From Plasmopara viticola (taxonomy: Eukaryota; Oomycota; Peronosporomycetes; Peronosporales; Peronosporaceae): DNA of 64,000 nt. Positions 5,818-58,878 of the stretch are shown piece by piece; within the stretch, counting starts at the first letter, position 1, and every line of letters starts with the position of its first letter. The notes under the pieces were generated by a model. That model was not told the origin of the DNA and made no database searches. It saw nothing but the letters and a program-made list of their open reading frames with translations. Location of the stretch: contig MBPM02000047.1 of assembly GCA_001695595.3 (NCBI GenBank), positions 558,001-622,000 on the forward strand, given 5' to 3'. A program made the translations under genes and the position numbers.

Positions 5818-5855
5818 ACCCCGATCAACAACAAGACAATAACAATACGAAAAAG
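5818..5855 (+). repeat. SINE-derived patch inside an array monomer
   Basis: These 38 bp match the SINE interior at 6723-6760 at 35 of 38 positions. They replace the usual trailer and T-tract of the monomer; ordinary monomer sequence resumes on both sides. No target-site duplication or SINE ends are present, so this looks like conversion or template switching, not insertion. Confidence 0.75.
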
Positions 5856-5888
5856 CAATCTTAGCAACATAATCAGCGGCTCGATTTA

Positions 5889-6516: not shown

Positions 6517-6588
6517 TGCCTCCGCCCGGGATTGAACCGGGGACCTTCTGTTTACAAGACAGATGCTTTACCACTGAGCCACACAGGC
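6517..6588 (-). tRNA. tRNA-Thr(TGT), copy A21 (5' neighbour is SINE 1)
   Basis: The D-stem 3' strand is AAGC instead of GAGC (one mismatch). The tRNA is full length; the SINE begins directly at its 5' end. Trailer GACTCGG, T5, with a distinctive aaaaacaacaac spacer shared only with A30. Confidence 0.6.
6573..6588. repeat. Left target-site duplication of SINE 1
   Basis: The 16-bp actgagccacacaggc, which is tRNA nucleotides 1-16 read antisense; repeated at 6850-6865. Confidence 0.9.
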
Positions 6589-6849
6589 TGACCTGGTGGC
6601 GTGGGTGTGTGGATTATGCTTCTGGTCCTCACGGTGTGTGTTGCGGGTTCGAGCCTCACATCGGACAAATTTCGTAATCAACTAGACTTGGGGAGAGGAC
6701 GGCCCCAAGCGAAATATCTCCGACCCCGATCAAGAATAAGACAATAACAAGACGAAAAAGAATCTTCAGACTAAAAATGTAAATGTAGAATTCCTAGCCA
6801 AGCCGAGAAGGTATAGGTTGTGTTAAGATTAAATACATGACAACTTTCA
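6589..6849 (+). mobile_element. tRNA-derived SINE, copy 1 (261 bp)
   Basis: Non-autonomous element with a tRNA-like head: a degenerate A box at 6597-6612 and a good B box, ggttcgagcc, at 6646-6655. The body has a perfect 7-bp stem (CTTGGGG 6687-6693 with CCCCAAG 6703-6709, 9-nt loop). The AT-rich 3' end finishes in gacaactttca, matching the 3' end of the two LINEs in this window. It has no open frame and no poly-A tail. It is inserted at the 5' end of a tRNA-Thr gene with a 16-bp duplication, in the same orientation and at the same base as the LINEs. Inference: Pol III transcribes it from the internal promoter and the LINE machinery mobilises it. Confidence 0.85.
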
Positions 6850-6865
6850 ACTGAGCCACACAGGC
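6850..6865. repeat. Right target-site duplication of SINE 1 (tRNA 5' stub)
   Basis: Second copy of actgagccacacaggc. Only the first 16 nt of the interrupted tRNA remain here, followed by normal monomer leader. Confidence 0.9.
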
Positions 6866-9639: not shown

Positions 9640-9711
9640 TGCCTCCGCCCGGGATTGAACCGGGGACCTTCTGTTTACAAGACAGATGCTCTACCACTGA
9701 GCCACACAGGC
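9640..9711 (-). tRNA. tRNA-Thr(TGT), copy A30 (5' neighbour is SINE 2)
   Basis: Consensus body, full length, with the SINE starting directly at its 5' end. Trailer GACTCGG, T5, with the aaaaacaacaac spacer shared with A21. Confidence 0.75.
9696..9711. repeat. Left target-site duplication of SINE 2
   Basis: actgagccacacaggc, repeated at 9973-9988. Confidence 0.9.
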
Positions 9712-9972
9712 TGACCCGGTGGCGTGGGTGTGTGGATTATGCTTCTGGTCCTCACGGTGTGTGTTGCGGGTTCGAGCCTCACATTGGACAAATTTCGTAA
9801 TCAACCAGACTTGGGGAGAGGACGGCCCCAAGCGAAATATTTCCGACCCCGATCAAGAATAAGACAATAACAAGACGAAAAAGAATCTTCAGACTAAAAA
9901 TGTAAATGTAGAAATCCTAGCCAAGCCGAGAAGGTATAGGTTGTGTTAAGATTAAATACATGACAACTTTCA
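9712..9972 (+). mobile_element. tRNA-derived SINE, copy 2 (261 bp)
   Basis: Same length as copy 1, with only about five substitutions. The monomer on its left carries the same private spacer variant as the monomer left of copy 1. The pair therefore probably arose by duplicating one SINE-bearing monomer, not by two insertions. Head, B box, hairpin and LINE-like 3' end are all retained. Confidence 0.85.
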
Positions 9973-9988
9973 ACTGAGCCACACAGGC
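9973..9988. repeat. Right target-site duplication of SINE 2 (tRNA 5' stub)
   Basis: Second copy of actgagccacacaggc, followed by normal monomer leader. Confidence 0.9.
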
Positions 9989-10230: not shown

Positions 10231-10302
10231 TGCCTCCGCCCGGGATTGAACCGGGGACCTTCTGTTTACAAGACAGATGCTCTACCACTGAGCCACACAG
10301 GC
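10231..10302 (-). tRNA. tRNA-Thr(TGT), copy A31 (head-to-head with LINE A)
   Basis: Consensus body, complete; LINE A starts at the next base in the opposite direction, so the natural tRNA leader is replaced by the LINE 5' UTR. Trailer ACGG, T5. Confidence 0.75.
10287..10302. repeat. Left target-site duplication of LINE A
   Basis: actgagccacacaggc (tRNA nt 1-16, antisense), repeated at 17881-17896. Confidence 0.92.
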
Positions 10303-10407
10303 ACTTCTCAATTTGCCGGCTACCCCTCAAGTCGACTTTTCGGAAGAACCCATCCCATCTCCTTCCTGCTTCAAGCTTCGTAAGCCTTCTGCTGTTCTTT
10401 TTCTGTG
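10303..10407 (+). promoter_or_regulatory. LINE A 5' UTR / presumed internal promoter
   Basis: These 105 pyrimidine-rich nt lie between the tRNA 5' end and the ORF1 ATG; the length is identical in LINE B. No A/B box or TATA is obvious. A full-length element must be transcribed from its first base, so a promoter is expected here or within the adjoining tRNA-side DNA; this is inference. Confidence 0.4.
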
Positions 10408-13016
10408 ATGAAAAATCCAGCTGTCGCTCCGTCTTCTGCACCTGCCACCTCCACTGCCTGTGCTGCCCCGGCTTTGGCAGCTGTGACTGCTCCAGACCAC
10501 CCGTCGGGCCGCGTGCCCCCTTTTCCTCGTGCGGATCCTGCCGACTCTTCTGTTGACGGGTTCCGTACTGCTCCCCTCGACGGCGCAGAAAGATCCGCAC
10601 CTCTTGCCGCGGTGACTTCCTCGCCGTCACCGCTCGCGCTGCCTATGTCAACATCGCCTGCTCATTCTGCTTCGTCTCTCACCATCGTCAAGACGGATAT
10701 TGACGAGGCGATGCTGACTGCACTCCCGGAAGGTGGCGCCTCTGCCGCTATTACTGACGATGATGCGGTCAAAAGCGTTGTTGATGAGGAAGTGAATGAT
10801 CCACGTCCATCGATGGCAATGCTGCTTCGCCAGCAAGAAGCTATCCGTCGTGACAACATCAAAGTCGATTCTGCACGTCGCCGTGTGGAGACCCCCAAGC
10901 CTCTCGCTGTCGACATTGAAGCGATTGAGCGCCAGTATGCTACCGGTGGCGACTGGTCCGACATTGCTTCTTGTATTCACCAGTCTCGCCCGTACGAGCT
11001 TCCCCGTGCCAGGTACGACATGGTGATTGAGACGGGTAAGACGTTCGCTAAGACGTCGCTGACAAAAATTATGGCTGCGCTCGTGGGGACAAATCACCGC
11101 AACTGTACGCTTGACCGTCTTTACGAGCAGAAAAGAGTCGGCCAGGTATCAAAGATGCCAGGTGGAAACCTGCGTCTCAAGCTCAAGGATCGCGAGGCGT
11201 GTATGGAACTCGAGCGCACGACCGTCAACCTCCTTGGCAACGTGTACCCGTTTAAGCCGTTTGACGTCCTTGCAAGCAAGTTCTTCCTGGATATTTCGAA
11301 CGTCGACTCGGACACGGACACGGACCTTGTTTTACGTCGTCTTTTCCTACTCAAATGCGAGCCAGTGTACGACACGTATCGCGATGTGAATCTGGCGACG
11401 GGTCTCACTTCGGCGACGTGGCGAGTGAACTTCCGGTCGAGCGAGTGTCCACCCCCACTGGTGGTGAACGGCTCGGTGTGTGACCAGCTCGTGTTCAACA
11501 ACAAATTGTATCCGGTTCATGGCAAAGACGCGCCATTTGCATCTGAGCGTCTTCCGTTCGGCTTCCGCTCGCACCACAGTATTGACTTGGAGTCACTCAA
11601 CCCGTCGAATGCTGAATATGCCCGACCCGTCCAAAGGCAGACTGCACGACCTGCCTCCAAGTCAAAGCCACCACGGACCCAATCGAATAAATCTCACGCT
11701 CCACAAGCTGAACCAATTCTTTCTTTGGTTGACGACGCGCTTGAGAACAAAGAGACAAAAGAGGATGGCCAGCTCCAGCCCGGAGCTCAGCATGGTCAGC
11801 AAAATATGGCCACACAACTTGCAAAGAGGGTCATCGACATTGATGACGTGCTCTCCATTCCAACGTTTAATGGATCCGGCAGTCGTCTCTCGCCCCCAGC
11901 GAGTCCAAAGGCTCCACCTAAGCAAATGCTCATGCTGACAAATGGTTCAGACGGATTTTCCACTGTCACGAACAAAAAGAAACGCTTGCGTGGAGGTATC
12001 GACTTCACTAACATGTTGACGAAACAGATGCCAAGACCACTGGATGGTGTCGCAACCACGAACTACTTCCAGGCGCTCCAGACAGTAGAAGTCAAGTTTG
12101 AGTTGATTGATGCGACCATGGACAGGAAGTATGGCATCCGTCACCACGTGCGTCCAGTTGACGTAACGCGTCCCAAAATCTCAAATCGTCCACAGAGTCT
12201 GCGTTCTTTGTCGAGAAACATCATACAAAAATTCGCAAGGCGTCGATTCCTTCGCCTGTTGTCGAGGTAACTGACTCTATGATCAGCGATGAAAACACGG
12301 CGCTATTAAACACACTTGATGACCGTCTCGTCGATGCGGACAAAGAAGTTGAGAGCATATCCACGATTCTTAGAAACGCGACAAATCCGGACCACATCAT
12401 GAAGAAAGCGACTGAGTCTCCGCTCGCGTTCAACAGTGCGCTATCCCTCAAGATGGCAGCTGGCGGCAACGAGATCGAGGAGCTTGCGCAATTGCACATG
12501 ATTAATCGAGTGCTGAGCGCAAATAAGCCGAACGAAGACACGACGTTCGTAGCAAAATGGAAGAGGCTTATGAAGACATCGGTTCCGTCCAAGCGTCAGG
12601 ATATCTTCGCTGCGTGTGGCAAGTGGTGGCAGGCGACACCGAAGATTTTTGAGCTGACGCGTTTCACTAAGGCGCTGTCCGCATTTGAACTAACGCTCAT
12701 GTCAATTGCGCCGACGCTGTTCGCAAATGATCATTGGATCTAGTACGTCACGGGTCATCCGGTCGAGTGGATCCCCGCCCACCACGCTCGCCTGCTACAC
12801 CCGAACACGCTGCTGAGTCTTCTGCGGTCAAAGATTGGTGAGCTATGCATGGTTCATTGGCGTGAGATCCAATGGCAAGGTCACTTGCTTGACGAGCTCG
12901 AAGAACTGCGGCAACTAGAAGGTCATTACCCGACAGATGAATCGGTTCTTCAGCTTCTTGTCACAGACGACGGATCGGTGACACCAGTAGCGGGCGGCAT
13001 AGCCACTCGCTACTAA
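10408..13016 (+). pseudogene. LINE A ORF1 (putative RNA-binding protein), broken
   Basis: ORF1 opens at ATG 10408 and its natural stop is TAA 13014-13016, about 869 codons as in LINE B. The first ~100 residues are Ala/Ser/Pro-rich and probably disordered. A middle region (roughly residues 205-390) has alternating hydrophobic strands that could be an RRM-like fold. The C-terminal third is helical and Trp-rich (WW near 740, HWREIQW near 816). No CCHC knuckle is seen. ORF1 proteins of LINEs usually bind the element RNA; here that is inference. Lesions: a one-base deletion near 12175 (LINE B has one more A in the run), which brings a TAA in the shifted frame at 12268-12270, and an in-frame TAG at 12741-12743 where LINE B has CAG. 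Confidence 0.85.
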
Positions 13017-13017
13017 G

Positions 13018-16000
13018 GTGATCTCGACGACGCATCTGACTTGGAACAACACCAGCGTGCTAACTGTGAACACGAATGGCGTCAAGAAGAACGGGCACCT
13101 TCTGATCGACAATCTGCTATCGAAGTACGGGATGTCGTGCATCCAAGAGACCAAATTTGCGGACCGCTCGCATCTTGCACGCTTCAAGTTTCACCTTGAG
13201 TCTACTTTCGAGCACAAAATATTTCTGAGCGATGTGAACACACTCCTGGACCGGCCGACACGCGGTCGAAGCAACGGAGTACTTACATTGCTCCGCTCCG
13301 ACTTCCCAGGCTTTGACTCAGCATTGGAGCTCACCCACCTGACCGTTCCTGGCCGGTACCTCGTCGTGCGTGTGCTGGTCAAGTTTGCTCCCGTCTATAT
13401 TCACAACGTCTACGCGCCTGTGGATAAACAAGAAAAACAAGCGTTTTTTTCCAATTTAGCAACGGAAGAATTCGAAGACGACGCGACACACATGGTACTT
13501 GGAGACCTCAATACTCCGCTGGACCCGACCTTGGACTGTTCAATGTCGGATTTGCGCTATGACTCAAGTCGTTCGTGCTGCTTGGATTGGTTGGCTCGAC
13601 TGGGTGTCGTCGACGCCTGGTGAATCCACCACGATACAGCACGCGTGTTCACGGGACCGATGCCTCGCAAGAACCGCCTTGATTACATCCTCGTCTCGGA
13701 CATATTTTGCAACAGCTTCTACGGCGATGCCAAGTATTTCTTGCCGGCACATGCCGGAGACCATCTGGCACATAGCGTGACTTTCAGGTCGGGGTCCCAG
13801 CTGCATGGTCGAGGTTACTGGAAGTTCCCGCACTATCTGCTCGAATACCCGCTGGTGGTATCGGCAATTCGGCGTGAAGCTGATGAGATCCTATTGAAGC
13901 TTCGCGCTTCGACGAATCCAGGGCGAACGTGGGAGCAGTGGAAGTCGGATATCAAAGTGCAGCTGCAGGATCTGCAGAAGAAGCTCCGATCTCAAGATAC
14001 CCAAGCTGTTGATGACGCTCGCGTCATGCTGGATCGCGCCGCCGCGTGTCACCGAGTTGCTGCCGACGATACTAACAAAAAGATGTACGAGGAAGCCATG
14101 AAGAACTACAAGGAGACAGTGACCCGGTCGAGTCAGTATCATCAAGACACTGCGTTCGATTTCCAAGCTGCAAACTCCGAGACGTCGACAAAGCACTTTT
14201 TTCGACCATTGGACACAAGCTTGCGGCGAATCTCGATTGAGGAAGTCTTACTTCCGAATGGAAGTGTCTCAACCAATCCAAACGAGATCAGCCTTCGCTT
14301 CCTCGAGCATTGGGGGTCGGAGATGGGTGACCCAGACAGTCAAACGGGAACAGCAACCCCACCAGACAACACGATGCAACGTAAGCTTCTCGACTCAGTC
14401 GTTCGCACGCTATCTGAGCTCGATAGGCAGGCGCTTGACAAGGACGTGAGCTCCATCGACTTGACAGAAGCCATTAAGGACATGAAAATGACGTCATCTC
14501 CAGGTTTCGATGGCTTGACAGCGGGATTCTACCAAGTCGCGCCGGACGTGTTTGGGCAGTGCCTAGCACTGGTCTTCAATGATCGACTCAAGCGCGGAAA
14601 ACTGCTTGCATCGCAGCGCAAGTCGGCGGTGGTGCTGTTGCACAAGAAGGGACCGCGCGCAGATCCAGGCAACTATCGACCGATCGCGCTCATTCCGGTC
14701 GATGTAAAGGTACTTTCAAAGGCACTGACTTATCGGCTGCAGTCTGCCATCCCAAAATTGTCCATATTTTGTCCGCGGCCGCTCGATCCACCACCACGTG
14801 CGTTTCCTGGCTGATCTTCAAGACCTTGTCACAAGTAGAACCGAAGAGGCATACGCGCTGTTCTTGGATTTTCAGAAGGCATTTGATCGAGTCAACTGGG
14901 ATTACATGTTCCGATTGCTTGAGCGTATGGGGATCGGCACAGGTTCCACACGCTAGTTAAAGCTGCTTTACACGGATCCGCTGGCTCACCTGCTGATCAA
15001 CGGCGTCATTCAGCCAGCGCTGCATCCTACTCGCGGAGTAAAACAAGGAGACCCTCTGTCCGCACTGCTGTTCATCTTAACGATTAAGCCACTCGGAAAC
15101 TTGCTGCGCTCACACGAGGAGTACGGTGTGTGTCTGAATGACAACGATACTGCAACGAGTTTATTCTTCGCAGATGACTCGACGCTAATCGGCAGCTCGA
15201 TCACAAATCTGCAGGCACAGCTTGAGACTGTAGAGAAGTACTGCCAAGGCTCGAGGGCAAAGTTGTACTTGTCAAAGTCCGTACTGCTGGCTCTAAACCG
15301 GAGACAAGACTGCCCGCTCATGCCCGGTGTTCGCGTCCTTGGACGCTCAGAATCGGTCAAGTATCTTGGCATTCCTTTCAGTCAGTCACCCATCGACGAC
15401 CGCATTCTTGGGTCACTTGACCAGCGCTTTTATGAAGGCTTGAAACTGTGGTACCGTCGCGCCCGCACTCTTCGCGGACGTCTCCTGGTTGCTCAGACCA
15501 TGGTGCTGTCGCGCCTATGGCATTGCACACAGCACGTCGCAATTCCGTTGTCTTTCGTCAAAAGATGGCAGTCGACGCTAAACCGGTTTGTGCTGAGTCG
15601 CAAGTACGACTGCGACGCGACACACATACAGTTAATCCCAAATGAATTTCTTTATCTTCGACGAGCAGATGGTGGACTTGGTTTTCCAAATCTTGAAGCA
15701 CAGCTTAAGCGACAACGTTTCGTGCTTATGATGCAATTCGTAGCACAGGCTCGAGCATCTGACGGATGCTGGTGGACGACTGCTAGTACAGAGTTATTGA
15801 GGACAATCCTTCCTCGGTACAGCAAATGCCATGCGCTCGATCTGCTTACAATATCCCCACAGCACCACGGCGAGATGATCAAGTGGAGTCACACTTCAAT
15901 GTGGTGGAAGACAACTTGGACCTGGTGGCATCGCTCAAGCTGGGAAAAGACGTGGCACGACTTGCCATCCAACGAGCGCATCGAGTATGCACTTGTCCAG

Positions 16001-17131
16001 CCGATCTGGTTTTACTCAGATGCCAGCCTTCACTACGAACAACGAATGCGTGGTGGCACGGCTTTGGCGCATCGGCGCTGCTTCGGTATGGTGCCAGAGC
16101 CACAACGAAGCTTTCGTCTACACGTCTCTCGCGTCTTCGGTCTTCGGTCGCTTGCTGACTTTATGCGCGGTCAGAACACGTGGCCAGCGCAGGTTGACTT
16201 CGTGGATCGACATATTGACTTTACGCTGGTGAATATCACGCCAGGCCAACAAATTAAGTGGCTACGCGTGATGTATAACGAGGCGACGCAGATCGTAGAT
16301 CGGCTTAAATCATGTGGTGGTGCTCTTTCGGTACCTGGCAGAGTTAGCCCAAGATTAATACCATACGTCGGTGTCTTCAGCAACGAGAAGCTGCAATTGT
16401 TTCCTGCGATCCCACGCTCGGCGGTTTTACGCGTCGTATGGAAGCCGAAACCACAGATAAAGCCGCATCCAATGAAGATCTATTGGGATCACATCAACGT
16501 CAGCCACATCAAGGAGCACGCGAAGCGGGGCAAGCGAATGCAAAAGGTACTGCTTCCTGTCTTCGAAGACCTTCAGTTAAGATTGGCTTTCCGACTGCTG
16601 CCGGTCCGGTCGCGCTTCTGGTTTCTGGAATATACAAATCCCGGCATCCGCACATGTGTGCGCGATGGTTGTGATGCAATTGAGTCGGAACAACATCTGT
16701 TCTTTTACTGCTCGCTTGCGTCGGACTTGTGGCTACACGTCCTTGATATCGCGTGCAGGCTCTTCAAGCACAAGCCGACGTGGCTCGACATCGCACTTGC
16801 GCGAAGAATGCAAGTGCGCGATGAATGGAAGGACCATGCGGCAATCGCAGCTGACGTATGGCATGTCCTTCGCGCAGTGACGCTTCATTTTTTGTGGTCG
16901 GATCGCAATCGGTGTTTGTTCGACGGAAGAAAGCCTACACCACCGCACCCAGCGCTACGAATAGTTTTCACGACATTTGCGGCGCACGTTCGACACTTGT
17001 TAAGGCGCTTATACGGTAACGATGATAAGCTGGTCCTAGCCAAAATTGTGCGCAAGATGCAGTCCCAGCCGGCCTTCGGGGAGTTCACCGATCTTCATCC
17101 TGGTATCACCAGTGTCCGCCAAACAGTCTAA
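13018..17131 (+). pseudogene. LINE A ORF2 (endonuclease-reverse transcriptase), broken
   Basis: This is the remains of the ORF2 polyprotein that would nick target DNA and reverse-transcribe the element RNA. The endonuclease segment is present, including the GDH motif that is out of frame in LINE B. So are the RT core and the C-terminal zinc motif. Disruptions: TGA 13621-13623 (LINE B has CGA), a 14-nt deletion near 14760 that removes part of the RT thumb-side motif and shifts the frame, and TAG 14954-14956 replacing a Trp codon. The frame from 14957 to the stop at 17131 is open. As in LINE B, the frame begins one base past the ORF1 stop with no nearby ATG. Confidence 0.9.
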
Positions 17132-17286
17132 TCGAGTGGTCCGACAACAATCCTGACAAAAAGCATATTATGCTATTTAAAGGGATTTCTTATCCACCAT
17201 CGGTTTTATTGTTCATTTCCGAATTTACCCGCTGAGGCTCAAGCGTTCCAGCAACTCCAGTATTCGCCGGCTCAAGTTGGGCTCTT

Positions 17287-17382
17287 CTCTGCGGACTGTA
17301 TTGTCTCCGGCTGCACCCGAAAGGGGGACGGGGGGCATGAGCCCAGATGTGGGCCCACTTAAACGTCGGCTTGAGGAAGGTG
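17287..17382 (+). repeat. LINE A 3' UTR repeat unit 1
   Basis: Direct repeat starting ctctgcggactgt. Its core contains CCC-GAAA-GGG, a stem closed by a GNRA-type tetraloop. The second unit follows at a 148-bp period. Confidence 0.8.
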
Positions 17383-17434
17383 CCGAACCCCTCCAAGCAA
17401 AAGCTTGACTCGCCGGTTTTTTTTACGAGCTCCC

Positions 17435-17530
17435 CTCTGCGGACTGTGTTGTCTCCGGCTGCACCCGAAAGGGAGACGGGGGGCATGAGCCCTGAGATGA
17501 GCCTGCTTTAAAGCCGGCCCGAGGAAAGTG
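17435..17530 (+). repeat. LINE A 3' UTR repeat unit 2
   Basis: Second copy of the unit. Its first 58 bp are nearly identical to unit 1 and the rest is diverged; the CCC-GAAA-GGG hairpin is kept. Confidence 0.8.
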
Positions 17531-17859
17531 ACGGCCTAGAGGTGGAACGAAGCGACAGCGAGCTAGAAGACCAGTGCTGCGTTTGGGCGCCCGAGGTAAA
17601 TACACGTGCAGCCAGTTGACATGAACCTGGCGATGTATATGCTGAACATGTGGCCGGAACTACAGCTGCTAACTATCAGTAATTCCGGAGAAATTTTGAC
17701 CCGCGCGGACGGTCCGACACGCCATTCTTCGATTCAAAACGGGGCAAAATGTAGAACCAAAACCCTACACACAAGACCCACACTTAATTATGTACATTAC
17801 ACAACATTAGTTTAGATTAGATTTTAAGCCAGGCAAGTTGATTAGTCATTCGTTTATAA

Positions 17860-17865
17860 AATAAA
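17860..17865 (+). terminator. AATAAA polyadenylation-like signal, LINE A
   Basis: AATAAA lies 15 bp upstream of the 3' end, in a position suitable for directing 3' cleavage of a Pol II transcript, although no genomic A-tail follows. Confidence 0.4.
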
Positions 17866-17880
17866 TATAGACAACTTTAA

Positions 17881-17896
17881 ACTGAGCCACACAGGC
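17881..17896. repeat. Right target-site duplication of LINE A (tRNA 5' stub)
   Basis: actgagccacacaggc, then the normal leader of array B. Confidence 0.92.
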
Positions 17897-51203: not shown

Positions 51204-51275
51204 TGCCTCCGCCCGGGATTGAACCGGGGACCTTCTGTTTACAAGACAGATGCTCTACCACTGAGCCACACAGGC
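51204..51275 (-). tRNA. tRNA-Thr(TGT), copy B106 (head-to-head with LINE B)
   Basis: Consensus body, complete; LINE B starts at the next base in the opposite direction. ACGG, CTCTTT. Confidence 0.74.
51260..51275. repeat. Left target-site duplication of LINE B
   Basis: actgagccacacaggc, repeated at 58863-58878. Confidence 0.92.
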
Positions 51276-51380
51276 ACTTCTCAATTTGCCGGCTACCCCT
51301 CAAGTCGACTCTTCGGAAGAACCCATCCCATCTCCTTCCTGCTCCAAGCTTCTTAAGCCTTCTGCTGTTCTTTTTCTGCG
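51276..51380 (+). promoter_or_regulatory. LINE B 5' UTR / presumed internal promoter
   Basis: 105 nt, same length as in LINE A with a handful of substitutions; it directly adjoins tRNA nucleotide 1. Confidence 0.4.
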
Positions 51381-53988
51381 ATGAAAAATCCAGCTGTCGC
51401 TCCGTCTTCTGGACCTGCCACCTCCACTGCCTGTGCTGTCCCGGCTTTGGCAGCTGTGACTGCTCCAGACCACCCGTCGGGCCGCGTGCCCCCTTTTTCT
51501 CGTGCGGATCCTGCCGACTCTTCTGTTGACGGGTTCCGTACTGCTCCCCTCGACGGCGCAGAAAGATCCGCACCTCTTGCCGCGGTGACTTCCTCGCCGT
51601 CACCGCTCGCGCTGCCTATGTCAACATCGCCTGCTCATTCTGCTTCGTCTCTCACCATCGTCAAGACGGATATTGACGAGGCGATGCCGACTGCACTCCC
51701 GGAAGGTGGCGCCTCTGCCGCTATTACTGACGATGATGCGGTCAAAAGCGTTGTTGATGAGGAAGTGAATGATCCACGTCCATCGATGGCAATGCTGCTT
51801 CGCCAGCAAGAACTATCCGTCGTGACAACATCAAAGTCGATACTGCACGTCGCCGTGTGGAGACCCCAAGCCTCTCGCTGTCGACATTGAAGCGATTGAG
51901 CGCCAGTATGCTACCGGTGGCGACTGGTCCGACATTGCTTCTTGTATTCACCAGTCTCGCCCGTACGAGCTTCCCCGTGCCAGGTACGACATGGTGATTG
52001 AGACGGGTAAGACGTTCGCTAAGACGTCGCTGACTAAAATTATGGCTGCGCTCGTGGGTACAAATCACCGCAACTGTACGCTTGACCGTCTTTACGAGCA
52101 GAAAAGAGTCGGCCAGGTATCAAAGATGCCAGGTGGAAACTTGCGTCTCAAGCTCAAGGATCGCGAGGCGTGTATGGAACTCGAGCGCACGACCGTCAGC
52201 CTCCTTGGCAACGTGTACCCGTTTAAGCCGTTTGACGTCCTTGCAAGCAAGTTCTTCCTGGATATTTCAAACGTCGACTCGGACACGGACACGGACCTTG
52301 TTTTACGTCGTCTTTTCCTACTCAAATGCGAGCCAGTGTACGACACGTATCGCGATGTGAATCTGGCGACGGGTCTCACTTCGGCGACGTGGCGAGTGTA
52401 CTTCCGGTCAAGTGAGTGTCCACCCCCACTGGTGGTGAACGGCTCGGTGTGCGACCAGCTCGTGTTCAACAACAAATTGTATCCGGTGCATGGCAAAGAC
52501 GCGCCATTTGCATCTGAGCGTCTTCCGTTCGGCTTCCGCTCGCACCACAGCATTGACTTGAAGTCGCTCAATCCGTCGAATGCTGAATATGCTCGACCCG
52601 TCCAAAGGCAGACTGCACGACCTACCTCCAAGTCAAAGCCACCACGGACCCAATCGAAAAAATCTCACGCTCCACAAGCTGAACCAGTTCTTTCTTTGGT
52701 TGACAACGTGCTTGAGAACAAAGAGACGAAAGAGGATGGCCAGCTCCAGCCCGGAGCTCAGCATGGTCAGCAAAATATGGCCACACAACTTGCAAAGAGG
52801 GTTATCGACATTGATGACGTGCTCTCGATTCCAACGTCTAATGGATCCGGCAGTCGTCTCTCGCCCCCAGCGAGTCCAAAGGCTCCACCTAAGCAAATGC
52901 TCATGCTGACAAATGGTTCAGACGGATTTTCCACTGTCACGAACAAAAAGAAACGCTTGCGTGGAGGTATCGACTTCACTAACATGTTGACGAAACAGAT
53001 GCCAAGACCACTGGATGGTGTCGCAACCACGAACTACTTCCAGGCGCTTCAGACAGTAGAAGTCAAGTTTGAGTTGATTGATGCGACCATGGACAGGAAG
53101 TATGGCATCCGTCACCACGTGCGTCCAGTTGACGTAACGCGTCCAAAAACTCTCAAATCGTCCACAGAGTCTGCGTTCTTTGTCGAGAAACATCATACAA
53201 AAATTCGCAAGGCGTCGATTCCTTCGCCTGTTGTCGAGGTAGCTGACTCTATGATCAGCGATGAAAACACGGCGCTATTAAACACACTTGATGACCGTCT
53301 CGTCGATGCGGACAAAAAAGTTGAGAGCATATCCACGATTCTTAGAAACGCGACAAATCCGGACCACATCATGAAGAAAGTGACTGAGTCTCCGCTCGCG
53401 TTCAACAGTGCGCTATCCCTCAAGATGGCAGCTGGCGGCAACGAGATCGAGGAGCTTGCGCAATTGCACATGATTAATCGAGTGCTGAGTGCAAATAAGC
53501 CGAACGAAGACACGACGTTCGTAGCAAAATGGAAGAGGCTTATGAAGACATCGGTTCCGTCCAAGCGTCAGGATATCTTCGCTGCGTGTGGCAAGTGGTG
53601 GCAGGCGACACCGAAGATTTTTGAGCTGACGCGTTTCACTAAGGCGCTGTCCGCATTTGAACTAACGCTCATGTCAATTGCGCCGACGCTGTTCGCAAAT
53701 GATCATTGGATCCAGTACGTCACGGGTCATCCGGTCGAGTGGATCCCCGCCCACCACGCTCGCCTGCTACACCCGAACACGCTGCTGAGTCTTCTGCGGT
53801 CAAAGATTGGTGAGCTATGCATGGTTCATTGGCGTGAGATCCAATGGCAAGGTCACTTGCTTGACGAGCTCGAAGAACTGCGGCAACTAGAAGGTCATTA
53901 CCCGACAGATGAATCGGTTCTTCAGCTTCTTGTCACAGACGACGGATCGGTGACACCAGTAGCGGGCGGCATAGCCACTCGCTGCTAA
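51381..53988 (+). pseudogene. LINE B ORF1 (putative RNA-binding protein), two 1-nt deletions
   Basis: ATG 51381 to TAA 53986-53988; 869 residues if the two one-base losses are ignored. Residues 1-~145 are in frame. A missing G near 51811 and a missing C in the C-run near 51866 together put ~18 codons out of frame, then the original phase is lost by two bases and the remaining ~670 codons run open to the stop. Regions: Ala/Ser/Pro-rich N-terminus; possible RRM-like region around 205-390; basic, Pro/Gln/Ser-rich linker around 400-510; helical C-terminus with WW near 740 and HWREIQW near 816. I do not recognise a named domain with certainty. In LINEs ORF1 normally coats the transcript and escorts it into an RNP with ORF2. 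Confidence 0.85.
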
Positions 53989-53989
53989 G

Positions 53990-56900
53990 GTGATCTCGAC
54001 GACGCATCTGACTTGGAACAACACCAGCGTGCTAACTGTGAACACGAATGGCGTCAAGAAGAACGGGCACCTTCTGATCGACAATCTGCTATCGAAGTAC
54101 GGGATGTCGTGCATCCAAGAGACCAAATTTGCGGACCGCTCGCATCTTGCACGCTTCAAGTTTCACCTTGAGTCTACTTTTGAGCACAAAATATTTCTGA
54201 GCGATGTGAACACACTCCTGGACCGGCCGACACGCGGTCGAAGCAACGGAGTACTCACATTGCTCCGCTCCGACTTCCCAGGCTTTGACTCAGCATTGGA
54301 GCTCACCCACCTGACCGTTCCTGGCCGGTACCTCGTCGTGCGTGTGCTGGTCAAGTTTGCTCCCGTCTATATTCACAACGTCTACGCGCCTGTGGATAAA
54401 CAAGAAAAACAAGCGTTTTTTTCCAATTTAGCAACGGAAGAATTCGAAGACGACGCGACACACATGGTACTTGGAGACCTCAATACTCCGCTGGACCCGA
54501 CCTTGGACTGTTCAATGTCGGATTTGCGCTATGACTCAAGTCGTTCGTGCTGCTTGGATTGGTTGGCTCGACTGGGTGTCGTCGACGCCTGGCGAATCCA
54601 CCACGATACAGCACGCGTGTTCACGGGACCGATGCCTCGCAAGAACCGCCTTGATTACATCCTCGTCTCGGACATATTTGCAACAGCTTCTACGGCGATG
54701 CCAAGTATTTCTTGCCGGCACATGCCGGAGACCATCTGGCACATAGCGTGACTTTCAGGTCGGGGTCCCAGCTGCATGGTCGAGGTTACTGGAAGTTCCC
54801 GCACTATCTGCTCGAATACCCGCTGGTGGTATCGGCAATTCGGCGTGAAGCTGATGAGATCCTATTGAAGCTTCGCGCTTCGACGAATCCAGGGCGAACG
54901 TGGGAGCAGTGGAAGTCGGATATCAAAGTGCAGCTGCAGGATCTGCAGAAGAAGCTCCGATCTCAAGATACCCAAGCTGTTGATGACGCTCGCGTCATGC
55001 TGGATCGCGCCGCCGCGTGTCACGAGTTGCTGCCGACGATACTAACAAAAAGATGTACGAGGAAGCCATGAAGAACTACAAGGAGACAGTGACCCGGTCG
55101 AGTCAGTATCATCAAGACACTGCGTTCGATTTCCAAGCTGCAAACTCCGAGACGTCGACAAAGCACTTTTTTCGACCATTGGACACAAGCTTGCGGCGAA
55201 TCTCGATTGAGGAAGTCTTACTTCCGAATGGAAGTGTCTCAACCAATCCAAACGAGATCAGCCTTCGCTTCCTCGAGCATTGGGGGTCGGAGATGGGTGA
55301 CCCAGACAGTCAAACGGGAGCAGCAACCCCACCAGACAACACGATGCAACGTAAGCTTCTCGACTCAGTCGTTCGCACGCTATCTGAGCTCGATAGGCAG
55401 GCGCTTGACAAGGACGTGAGCTCCATCGACTTGACAGAAGCCATTAAGCACATGAAAATGACGTCATCTCCAGGTTTCGATGGCTTGACAGCGGGATTCT
55501 ACCAAGTCGCGCCGGACGTGTTTGGGCAGTGCCTAGCACTGGTCTTCAATGATCGACTCAAGCGCGGAAAACTGCTTGCATCGCAGCGCAAGTCGGCGGT
55601 GGTGCTGTTGCACAAGAAGGGACCGCGCGCAGATCCAGGCAACTATCGACCGATCGCGCTCATTCCGGTCGATGTAAAGGTACTTTCAAAGGCACTGACT
55701 TATCGGCTGCAGTCTGCCATCCCAAAATTGGTCCATACGGACCAAAAGGGTTTTGTCCGCGGCCGCTCGATCCACCACCACGTGCGTTTCCTGGCTGATC
55801 TTCAAGACCTTGTCACAAGTAGAACCGAAGAGGCATACGCGCTGTTCTTGGATTTTCAGAAGGCATTTGATCGAGTCAACTGGGATTACATGTTCCGATT
55901 GCTTGAGCGTATGGGGATCGGCACAGGTTTCACACGCTGGATAAAGCTGCTTTACACGGATCCTCTGGCTCACCTCCTGATCAACGGCGTCATTCAGCCA
56001 GCGCTGCATCCTACTCGCGGAGTGAAACAAGGAGACCCTCTGTCCGCACTGCTGTTCATCTTAACGATTGAGCCACTCGGAAACTTGCTGCGCTCACACG
56101 AGGAGTACGGTGTGTGTCTGAATGACAACGATACTGCAACGAGTTTATTCTTCGCAGATGACTCGACGCTAATCGGCAGCTCGATCACAAATCTGCAGGC
56201 ACAGCTTGAGATTGTAGAGAAGTACTGCCAAGGCTCGGGGGCAAAGTTGAACTTGTCAAAGTCCGTACTGCTGGCTCTAAACCGGAGACAAGACTGCCCG
56301 CTCATGCCCGGTGTTCGCGTCCTTGGACGCTCAGAATCGGTCAAGTATCTTGGCATTCCTTTCAGTCAGTCACCCATCGACGACCGCATTCTTGAGTCAC
56401 TTGACCAGCGCTTTTATGAAGGCTTGAAACTGTGGTACCGTCGCGCCCGCACGCTTCGCGGACGTCTCCTGGTTGCTCAGACCATGGTGCTGTCGCGCTT
56501 ATGGCATTGCACACAGCACGTCGCAATTCCGTTGGCTTTCGTCAAAAGATGGCAGTCGACGCTAAACCGGTTTGTGCTGAGTCGCAAGTACGACCGCGAC
56601 GCGACACACATACAGCTAATCCCAAATGAATTTCTCTATCTTCGACGAGCAGATGGTGGACTTGGTTTTCCAAATCTTGAAGCACAGCTTAAGCGACAAC
56701 GTTTCGTGCTTCTGATGCAGTTCGTAGCACAGGCTCGAGCATCTGACGGACGCTGGTGGACGACTGCTAGTACAGAGTTATTGAGGTCAATCCTTCCTCG
56801 GTACAGCAAATGCCATGCGCTCGATCTGCTTACAATATCCCCACAGCGCCACGGCGAGATGATCAAGTGGAGTCACACTTCAATGTGGTGGAAGACAACT

Positions 56901-58115
56901 TGGACCTGGTGGCATCGCTCAAGCTGGGAAAAGACGTGGCACGACTTGCCATCCAACGAGCGCATCGAGTATGCACTTGTCCAGCCGATCTGGTTTCACT
57001 CAGATGCCAGCCTTCACTACGAACAACGAATGCGTGGTGGCACGGCTTTGGCGCATCGGCGCTGCATCGGTATGGTGCCAGAGCCACAACGAAGCTTTCG
57101 TCTACACGTCTCTCGCGTCTTCGGTCTTCGGTCGCTTGCTGACTTTATGCGCGGTCAGAACACGTGGCCAGCGCAGGTTGACTTCGTGGATCGACATATT
57201 GACTTTACGCTGGTGAATATCACGCCAGGCCAACAAATTAAGTGGCTACGCGTGATGTATAACGAGGCGACGCAGATCGTAGATCGGCTTAAATCATGTG
57301 GTGGTGCTCTTTCGGTACCTGGCAGAGTTAGCCCAGGATTAATACCATACGTCGGTGTCTTCAGCAACGAGAAGCTGCAATTGTTTCCTGCGATCCCACG
57401 CTCGGCGGTTTTACGCGTCGTATGGAAGCCGAAACCACAGATAAAGCCGCATCCAATGAAGATCTATTGGGATCACATCAACGTCAGCCACATCAAGGAG
57501 CACGCGAAGCGGGGCAAGCGAATGCGAAAGGTACTGCTTCCTGTCTTCGAAGACCTTCAGTTAAGATTGGCTTTCCGACTGCTGCCGGTCCGGTCGCGCT
57601 TCTGGTTTCTGGAATATACAAATCCCGGCATCCGCACATGTGTGCGCGATGGTTGTGATGCAATTGAGTCGGAACAACATCTGTTCTTTGACTGCTCGCT
57701 TGCGTCGGACTTGTGGCTACACGTCCTTGATATCGCGTGCAGGCTCTTCAAGCACAAGCCGACGTGGCTCGACATCGCACTTGCGCGAAGGGTGCAAGTG
57801 CGCGATGAATGGAAGGACCATGCGGCAATCGCAGCTGACGTATGGCATGTCCTCCGCGCAGTGACGCTTCATTTTTTGTGGTCGGATCGCAATCGGTGTT
57901 TGTTCGACGGAAGAAAGCCTACACCACCGCACCCAGCGCTACGAATAGTTTTCACGACATTTGCGGCGCACGTTCGACACTTGTTTAGGCGCTTATACGG
58001 TAACGATGATAAGCTGGTCCTAGCCAAAATTGTGCGCAAGATGCAGTCCCAGCCGGCCTTCGGGAGGTTCACCGATCTTCATCCTGGTATCACCAGTGTC
58101 CGCCAAACAGTCTAA
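53990..58115 (+). pseudogene. LINE B ORF2 endonuclease-reverse transcriptase, two 1-nt deletions
   Basis: About 1375 codons, numbered from GTG 53990. The APE-type endonuclease (EEP family) spans ~14-255, with NTNG 18-21, QETK 43-46 (E44), NVYAP 130-134, GDLN 162-165 and RLDYIL 220-225. The following GDH motif (D248/H249) is thrown out of frame by loss of one T in a T-run at 54677. A missing C near 55023 restores an open frame to 58115. RT core: GNYRPIAL, FLDFQKAFD (D622), GVKQGDPLS, FADD (D724, D725), YLGIPF. C-terminal zinc motif C-x4-C-x7-H-x4-C at C1218, C1223, H1231, C1236, as in zf-RVT domains. No RNase H was seen. The frame has no ATG near its start and opens only one base past the ORF1 stop, so translation must be coupled to ORF1 or use a non-AUG start. 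Confidence 0.9.
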
Positions 58116-58270
58116 TCGAGTGGTCCGACAACAATCCTGACAAAAAGCATATTATGCTATTTCAAGGGATTTCTTATCCACCATCGGTTTTATTGTTCAT
58201 TTCCGAATTTACCCGCCGAGGCTCAAGCGTCCCAGCAACTCCAGTACTCGCCGGCTTAAGTTGGGCTCTT

Positions 58271-58365
58271 CTCTGCGGACTGTGTTGTCTCCGGCTGCAC
58301 CCGAAAGGGGGACGGGGGCATGAGCCCAGATGCGGGCCCACTTAATCGTCGGCTTGAGGAAGGTG
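58271..58365 (+). repeat. LINE B 3' UTR repeat unit 1
   Basis: Direct repeat with CCC-GAAA-GGG hairpin; unit 2 follows at a 146-bp period. Confidence 0.8.
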
Positions 58366-58416
58366 CCGAACCCCTCCAAGCTAAAGCTTGACTCGCCGGT
58401 TTTAAAACGAGCTCCC

Positions 58417-58512
58417 CTCTGCGGACTGTGTTGTCTCCGGCTGCACCCGAAAGGGAGACGGGGGGCATGAGCCCTGAGGTGAGCCTGCTTTAAAGCCGGC
58501 CCGAGGAAAGTG
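58417..58512 (+). repeat. LINE B 3' UTR repeat unit 2
   Basis: Second copy; unit 2 of LINE B resembles unit 2 of LINE A, so the duplication predates both insertions. Confidence 0.8.
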
Positions 58513-58841
58513 ACGGTCTAGAGGTGGAACGAAGCGACAGCGAGCTAGAAGACCAGTGCTGCGTTTGGGCGCCCGAGGTAAATACACGTGCAGCCAGTTG
58601 ACATGAACCTGGCGATGTATATGCTGAACATGTGGCCGGAGCTACAGCTGCTAACTATCAGTATTTCCGGAGAAATTTTGACCCGCGCGGACGGTCCGAC
58701 ACGCCATTCTTCGATTCAAAAAGGGGCAAATTGTAGAACCGAAACCCTACACACAAGACCCACACTAAATTATGTACATTACACAACATTAGTTTAGATT
58801 AGATTTTAAGCCAGGCAAGTTGATTAGTCATTCGTTTATAA

Positions 58842-58847
58842 AATAAA
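58842..58847 (+). terminator. AATAAA polyadenylation-like signal, LINE B
   Basis: 15 bp before the element end, conserved with LINE A. Confidence 0.4.
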
Positions 58848-58862
58848 TATAGACAACTTATA

Positions 58863-58878
58863 ACTGAGCCACACAGGC
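58863..58878. repeat. Right target-site duplication of LINE B (tRNA 5' stub)
   Basis: actgagccacacaggc, then array C leader. Confidence 0.92.

Follow-up and report, generated by a model that had tools for sequence, protein, structure and literature searches.

The tRNA-Thr array and its insertions

The window, by which we mean the whole stretch of 64,000 nucleotides of Plasmopara viticola DNA analysed here, is a tandem array of tRNA-Thr genes spaced about 316 bp apart, with 152 tRNA calls by ARAGORN, and it is broken by two SINEs and two LINEs (Table 1). All four elements carry ACTGAGCCACACAGGC on both sides and in one orientation, just as the initial annotation had bounded both element types. 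Indeed, this 16-mer, with up to three mismatches allowed, has 155 matches in the window against 0.30 expected by chance, and since it lies at nearly every tRNA-Thr gene of the window, it is itself the target.

Table 1. Coordinates of the elements in the window and of their parts
Feature	Position	Strand	Remarks
tRNA-Thr(TGT), adjoining the SINE 1 5' end	6517-6588	-	holds the left duplication copy; ARAGORN; Rfam RF00005
SINE 1 left duplication copy	6575-6588		14 bp, TGAGCCACACAGGC; complement of tRNA nt 14-1
SINE 1	6589-6849, to 6851 with terminal AC	+	antisense to tRNA-Thr(TGT)
SINE 1 B box	6646-6655	+	GGTTCGAGCC, in the head; from sequence
SINE 1 predicted 3' hairpin	6817-6841	+	arms GTTGTGT (6817-6823) and ACATGAC (6835-6841)
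SINE 1 end after the hairpin	6842-6851	+	AACTTTCAAC; LINE A counterpart AACTTTAAAC
SINE 1 right duplication copy	6852-6865		orphan stub, tRNA nt 1-14
Proposed SINE RNA 3' parts			predicted hairpin, terminal AACUUUCAAC, then stub if read through
SINE 2	9712-9972, to 9974 with terminal AC	+	at a nearby tRNA-Thr gene, 9640-9711
SINE 2 duplication	left 9698-9711, right 9975-9988		
LINE A, family F1	10303-17882	+	7580 bp; duplication 10289-10302 / 17883-17896
LINE A ORF1-like open frame	10384-12270	+	upstream of the endonuclease; no Pfam match
LINE B, family F1	51276-58864	+	7589 bp; duplication 51262-51275 / 58865-58878
LINE B AP-type endonuclease frame	53975-54751	+	Exo_endo_phos, E 7.5e-10
LINE B reverse transcriptase frame	54987-58115	+	RVT_1, E 2e-36; best solved relative human L1 ORF2p

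Our search for further copies covered one genome, of 92,937,831 bases in 358 contigs; for the SINE the 40 best candidates were scored and 41 places listed, and further places were also fetched. In all, we read 85 full-length SINE copies on 24 contigs, in addition to nine partial matches that are left out of the 85. The head of the element carries A and B boxes, which we assigned by their consensus motifs: the B box is present within one mismatch in every full-length copy, and the A-box-like TGGGTTAGTGG, again within one mismatch, in 81 of the 85. The tRNA-like Pol III head described initially therefore holds as regards its boxes, but Rfam calls no tRNA over the head at E <= 1 at any of three loci. 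We class the element as a Pol III-type SINE on these features, and it would presumably be transcribed by Pol III. A TTTT run is absent from within 74 copies and present inside 11, and in the 67 copies where a flanking TTTT was seen, the nearest lies 57-534 nt downstream. A 45-nt piece that is 91% like SINE nt 135-178, without element ends, lies in a tRNA-Thr spacer unit at window positions 5818-5862, and divergent relatives of the SINE (about 82-84%) at loci L115 (G000:C96) and L030 (661-709) have altered tRNA stubs, which suggests an old association with tRNA sites.

The LINEs encode an APE endonuclease (PF03372) and a reverse transcriptase (PF00078), the latter scoring 169 bits to human L1 ORF2p versus 88 bits to R2, and by these domains and scores we take them to be L1-like and of the APE type. 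In both window copies ORF2 is split over separate frames, which may be due to decay or to assembly error, and the picture of a complete parasite-of-a-parasite system in this one locus is not supported by these copies; related LINEs carry the endonuclease and reverse transcriptase in a single frame of, for example, 1341-1398 aa. Named protein homologues come from Globisporangium, Peronospora, Phytophthora, Thraustotheca, Achlya and Albugo, and remoter ones from Closterium and a butterfly. Nucleotide and protein identity together set apart families F1-F7, in which the reverse transcriptase identity to LINE B runs from about 85-94% in F2 copies down to about 51% in F5. Family F6 has an extra open frame of more than 400 aa after ORF2 (L073 7091-8570, L103 7081-8489), and Pfam gave no match for this frame or for the ORF1-like one. 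Rfam had no match in the LINE 3' region, while the 5' region gave part of a tRNA at the target and a second hit far under its threshold, and a viral-contig scan with the LINE reverse transcriptase returned none. A module of about 105 nt occurs twice in the LINE 3' UTR (window 17281-17385 and 17429-17533, 84% alike); some 60-77 nt of it are 91-98% identical across F1, F2, F3 and F6, more than F3 and F6 share with F1 at the protein level, and the module was not found in F4, F5 or F7 at E 1e-3, nor did it match Rfam. Upstream of the window, this tRNA-Thr array contains the start of one more LINE (L038, from 5691).

One insertion point in many tRNA genes

Directly 3' of every one of the 85 full-length SINEs there is a stub of a tRNA D-arm, which reads ACTGAG in 83, ACTTAG in one and ACTGAACTGAG in one, none of these copies lying at an unrelated target. 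Directly upstream, ARAGORN calls a tRNA in 76 of the 85, and in 69 of those 76 the tRNA 5' end lies 0 to +2 nt from the start of the SINE match. The species called are Tyr (19), Thr-AGT (14), Thr-TGT (12), Thr-CGT (10), Lys (7) and Met (5), followed by the rarer Ala (3), Ile (3), Phe, Asn and Pro-CGG (one each, the last of which may be an altered Thr gene), so that the insertion into a tRNA gene claimed at the outset is confirmed as site-specific but is not confined to tRNA-Thr. The left flank of the remaining nine SINEs ends in D-arm sequence, two of the nine being stacked on another element. Genome-wide, the exact SINE tail AATACATGACAACTTTC occurs 136 times, with none in the backward control; among the 100 of these that were listed, 94 run on as AACTGAG, those beyond the fetched copies being known just as a 17-letter match with this ending, and the other six, when read, have a stub with one changed base. 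A gapped tail pattern gave 22 matches against three in its control and added one confirmed junction.

Relative to the tRNA gene the element is in antisense, with its 5' end at the tRNA 5' end, at nt 1 or 1-2 nt beyond, and its 3' end joined to tRNA nt 14 (the numbering is by eye from ARAGORN coordinates). Next to the element there is thus usually still an entire tRNA gene, with the orphan 14-nt stub at the opposite end. Six SINE sites have TTTGAG or ATTGAG in the left copy but AACTGAG on the right, and a LINE at a tRNA-Arg gene (L063) likewise has AAC on the right despite a differing left copy. Because AC appears on the right even where the target reads TTTGAG, the element ends in ...AAC and the duplication starts at TGAG; the duplication is thus about 14 bp, corresponding to tRNA nt 1-14, and the 16 bp first given for it included the AC that is part of the element. 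Three copies on contig C52 with like flanks (G000:C52:60110-67862; L121-L123) speak against this boundary, having GACTGAG on the right and tails that read TTTCGACTGAG; they keep the target G, not the usual A, this G being the base of a like tRNA site in L102, and they probably represent one event, in which the nick looks to have shifted or a base to have mutated. The 3' junctions of L052 and of the SINE at G000:C312:21414 carry additional units of TAAAC or ACTGA, as if from template slippage or the copying of read-through RNA.

The LINEs use the same point. All 38 LINE 3' ends that were read, plus two F7 ends, lie at the tRNA site, and the stub was absent from the query with which they were found; with the 85 SINE stubs, this bears out the central observation of the initial annotation, that SINE and LINE share their site, orientation and 3' end. 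It extends to at least six L1-like LINE families with the same insertion point and the same orientation as the SINE. The 38 derive from 41 rows by leaving out three without a 3' end (C8:1575845, C306:1 and C37:723037), counting two rows as one element (C163:9380-9574) and adding L088; the junction script kept those 3' matches that reached query position 225 and those 5' matches that began at position 25 or earlier. Among the 27 LINE tail matches, 25 are among the 3' ends read, and C23:283858 and C94:253686 were left out. For the 5' ends, five of 40 places (C347:8019, C233:53263, C233:8943, C8:1683760 and C6:7725) were left out and L055, L056 and L071 added, giving 38, of which 37 are readable since L046 is without a left flank; 31 of the 37 lie at the tRNA point and six elsewhere (L055, L056, L071, L083, L089 and L090). 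The left flank at L071, L089 and L090 resembles another part of a tRNA gene, and L071 has by eye a target deletion of about 39 bp rather than a duplication. Duplications of 12-15 bp were found in seven of the nine LINEs paired by script (L071 has none, and L046 has no left flank), several others having gone unpaired, either for want of a fit to the end pattern or through truncation of the fetched sequence. The stub at L060 resembles tRNA-Leu by eye, with no ARAGORN call there, and F6 (L073, L103) starts at a tRNA, the end of L073 carrying a poly(A) run, with no tRNA stub found there.

Could the common site have come about without any choice of target? Many SINE copies are indeed periodic in tRNA arrays, for example on C76 (tRNA-Tyr), the tRNA-Thr array of the window is itself long, and the 85 SINEs reduce to 42 classes of stub plus left junction, many copies being array duplicates, so that independent insertions are fewer. 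Spread mainly by unequal crossing-over or conversion within arrays, with the site inherited rather than chosen, nevertheless seems to us very improbable, since the stub fits the local tRNA in 19 stub sequences (some of them array variants), eight amino acids and 24 contigs, a divergent copy (L115) sits at a tRNA-Asn-like site, and array copying does not place an insertion at a different tRNA species and give it a new duplication to match. As the sole process, array copying is rejected on the strength of these stubs, which match many local tRNA species. Recombination between the tRNA-like head of the SINE and tRNA genes, to which the A- and B-box-like motifs might have lent themselves, is harder still to credit: it is at the element's 3' end that the junction is constant, the site is shared by LINEs that do not resemble the SINE body, and duplications are present. 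Indeed, dispersed copies on the 24 contigs carry exact target-site duplications, of 10-25 nt by script, in 71 of 85 (the longer ones being extensions by chance or stacking), and none was found in 14, in several of these by reason of single-base differences.

The shared 3' end and the SINE's partner

The agreement of about 17 of the last 21 bases reported between SINE 1 and LINE A became, on retesting, 19 of 22 aligned columns, with a local score of 27 that was reached by one of 2000 shuffles and a 3'-anchored score of 20 that was reached by none. LINE B (F1_B) agrees in 15 of 17 columns (local score 22, 30 of 2000 shuffles). The window family is not the unique best match, as F2, F3 and F5 also reach 27, with F7 at 24 and F4 at 18 (90 of 2000 shuffles), and the TTCAAC end is common to the SINE, F4, F5 and F7. 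For all seven LINE tails the 3'-anchored score is reached by between zero and three of 2000 shuffles. The shared sequence is short, at about 22-28 nt, and an unanchored BLAST of the SINE against LINE bodies F1-F7 returned no tail match at E <= 5; the weight of the tail likeness therefore comes solely from the position of both stretches at a 3' end, and the terminal AAC could be common to both owing to the target and not to the partner.

Upstream of the terminal motif the tails are predicted to fold into a hairpin ending in GAC, with seven of seven pairs for the SINE (2 of 2000 shuffles reach this) and likewise for F1 (17), F2 (28) and F3 (38); in an ungapped test F4 (249) and F7 (285) are weak and F5 (1617) fails. 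This test was designed after the folds were seen, and whole-tail fold z-scores are modest, from -0.3 to -2.5. The SINE pairs GTTGTGT/ACATGAC and the F2 pairs GTCTATA/TATAGAC differ by eye on both sides at four of seven positions. On these predictions a 3' hairpin may be common to the SINE and the F1-F3 LINEs.

In one element (L113), SINE nt 148-263 (92%) are fused to LINE F6 sequence (97%, 472 bp) and the chimera ends at a tRNA-Met stub; the simplest reading is that reverse transcription started with SINE RNA as its template and then jumped to LINE RNA, although recombination may be an alternative. The shared end, the shared site and this one chimera point to movement of the SINE by LINE proteins, and F1, the LINE family of the window, is a plausible partner. 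It is a real possibility, falling somewhat short of probable in our judgement, that the SINE is mobilised by a different tRNA-targeted family, be it F5, F7, F6 or one as yet unseen: F5 and F7 have the SINE's terminal TTCAAC, F5 equals F1_A in local score, and the sole SINE/LINE chimera seen carries F6 sequence, whereas the best 3'-anchored scores belong to F1_A, F2 and F3 (20, 18 and 20, versus 15 for F5 and 10 for F7). Several LINE families may, moreover, act on the SINE.

A proposed mechanism and its relatives

The junctions, the duplication, the regenerated tRNA gene, the shared end, the stacks and the site common to the families are all read directly in the DNA, and we think it very likely that the SINE uses the target-primed reverse transcription machinery of LINEs that are L1-like, have an AP endonuclease and have specialised in tRNA genes as targets. 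In outline, the LINE endonuclease would nick the sense strand within the D-arm of the tRNA gene, just 3' of A14 (for most targets, 5'-TAGCTCA^), and the freed 3' end would prime the copying of LINE or SINE RNA, whose template end would consist of the hairpin and, behind it, AACUUU(A/C)AAC or a sequence close to it. The other strand would be cut near tRNA position 1, presumably as the second of the two nicks, duplicating nt 1-14 and leaving the element antisense, with the whole tRNA gene at its 5' end and the 14-nt stub at its 3' end. Since the tRNA gene is regenerated, repeat entry at one gene is possible, and later SINEs and LINEs would re-enter it and push older insertions outward. Stacks are indeed found, with a tRNA-Lys gene followed by a SINE, an F5 LINE and an F7 LINE, another tRNA-Lys gene followed by two SINEs, and a tRNA-Phe gene followed by an F3 LINE and then a SINE, their units parted by one and the same stub; with the tRNA on the left of the stack, the newest insertion should adjoin it, so that the stacks would be ordered in time.

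More tentatively, and with rather less than an even expectation of being right, we suggest that tRNA genes serve as self-renewing landing pads with time-ordered LINE/SINE stacks, and that read-through stub RNA guides priming. The SINE RNA would read through into the stub, which is plausible because most SINE copies are without a TTTT stop, and the stub's UGAGCUA... could pair with the nicked ...TAGCTCA-3' of many tRNAs. If true, read-through-guided priming would account for the use of many tRNA species by one element.

The eel elements UnaL2 and UnaSINE1 are an example of a stringent LINE/SINE pair, to which the present elements are alike in the LINE-like 3' end of the SINE; they differ from it in that the sequence identity here amounts to about 22 nt, the sequence of the putative stem is different, and the insertion point is a single base within tRNA genes. 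In stringent pairs the 3' end of the SINE resembles that of the LINE, which fits recognition of the template in trans (PMC3414825). In Drosophila, R2 and the R2/R1 SIDEs lie at R1 or R2 sites, and the SIDEs are, as here, non-autonomous elements at the target of a site-specific LINE, with 14-bp duplications in hybrid SIDEs and reported template jumps, but they are deletion derivatives cotranscribed with 28S rRNA, and the element here is a Pol III SINE (PMC3414825). A SIDE-like deletion origin is rejected for it, as its likeness to LINE bodies F1-F7 is no better than chance (best E 1.9, plus strand).

TRE5 and TRE3 of Dictyostelium and NLTR-A of D. purpureum are also L1-type LINEs tied to tRNA genes, and together with NLTR-B they insert outside the gene, according to the portions of the accounts used here (PMC5911963, PMC5006619). 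NLTR-A inserts 2-6 bp upstream of the mature tRNA, which is near the left junction seen here (PMC5006619), and it may work like the present system; in contrast, the TREs insert at a distance, NLTR-A has an RNase H, and those portions mention neither a duplication of tRNA nt 1-14 nor a SINE partner (PMC5911963, PMC5006619). Distance targeting of the TRE5/TRE3 kind is rejected here, the 3' junction being fixed at tRNA nt 14. The same comparison bears on whether Pol III factors or chromatin, and not a sequence preference of the endonuclease, direct insertion, which we consider unlikely, if well short of negligible: the targets are Pol III genes, and the ORF1 protein of TRE5-A is described in that account as binding TFIIIB (PMC5911963), whereas TREs insert over windows outside the gene and the 3' junction here is base-fixed inside it. 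The two modes could, however, act jointly.

Site-specific non-LTR elements in small-RNA gene loci are also represented by Dewa (spacer of zebrafish tRNA-Leu), Keno (U2, with an APE-type endonuclease) and Mutsu (5S) (PMC3706591, PMC4640811). Dewa uses the spacer of one tRNA species, and the site here falls within the gene itself and is found in many tRNAs. The oomycete Utopia elements are site-specific, with one small-RNA target used by several lineages, as here, but have a restriction-like endonuclease and target U2 (PMC4640811); with an APE-type endonuclease, an L1-like reverse transcriptase and tRNA-gene targets, membership of Utopia is rejected for the present LINEs. Some families of Dada duplicate TAGCTC, which lies in box A of tRNA genes, but these are DNA transposons with 6-7 bp duplications, and the Perkinsus families are each bound to their own tRNA genes (PMC3706591). 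Finally, arrayed tRNA genes run into the thousands in P. infestans, insertions in them going without mention in the part of that work used here (PMC9584435). A literature search whose scope stopped short of subscription journals and Repbase found no report of a LINE/SINE pair inside tRNA genes.

The shared site and the shared end are real, and from them we infer the partner family and the mode of movement. The finding joins in one system the SINEs that borrow LINE 3' ends and the LINEs that target multicopy RNA genes, with both partners inserting at one position, exact to the base, within tRNA genes of many kinds. Since the tails keep the terminal motif while the rest differs, they offer a natural test set for template recognition by LINEs. 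Most of all, an insertion that spares the gene and renews the target gives a clear account of how such elements could persist with little harm.
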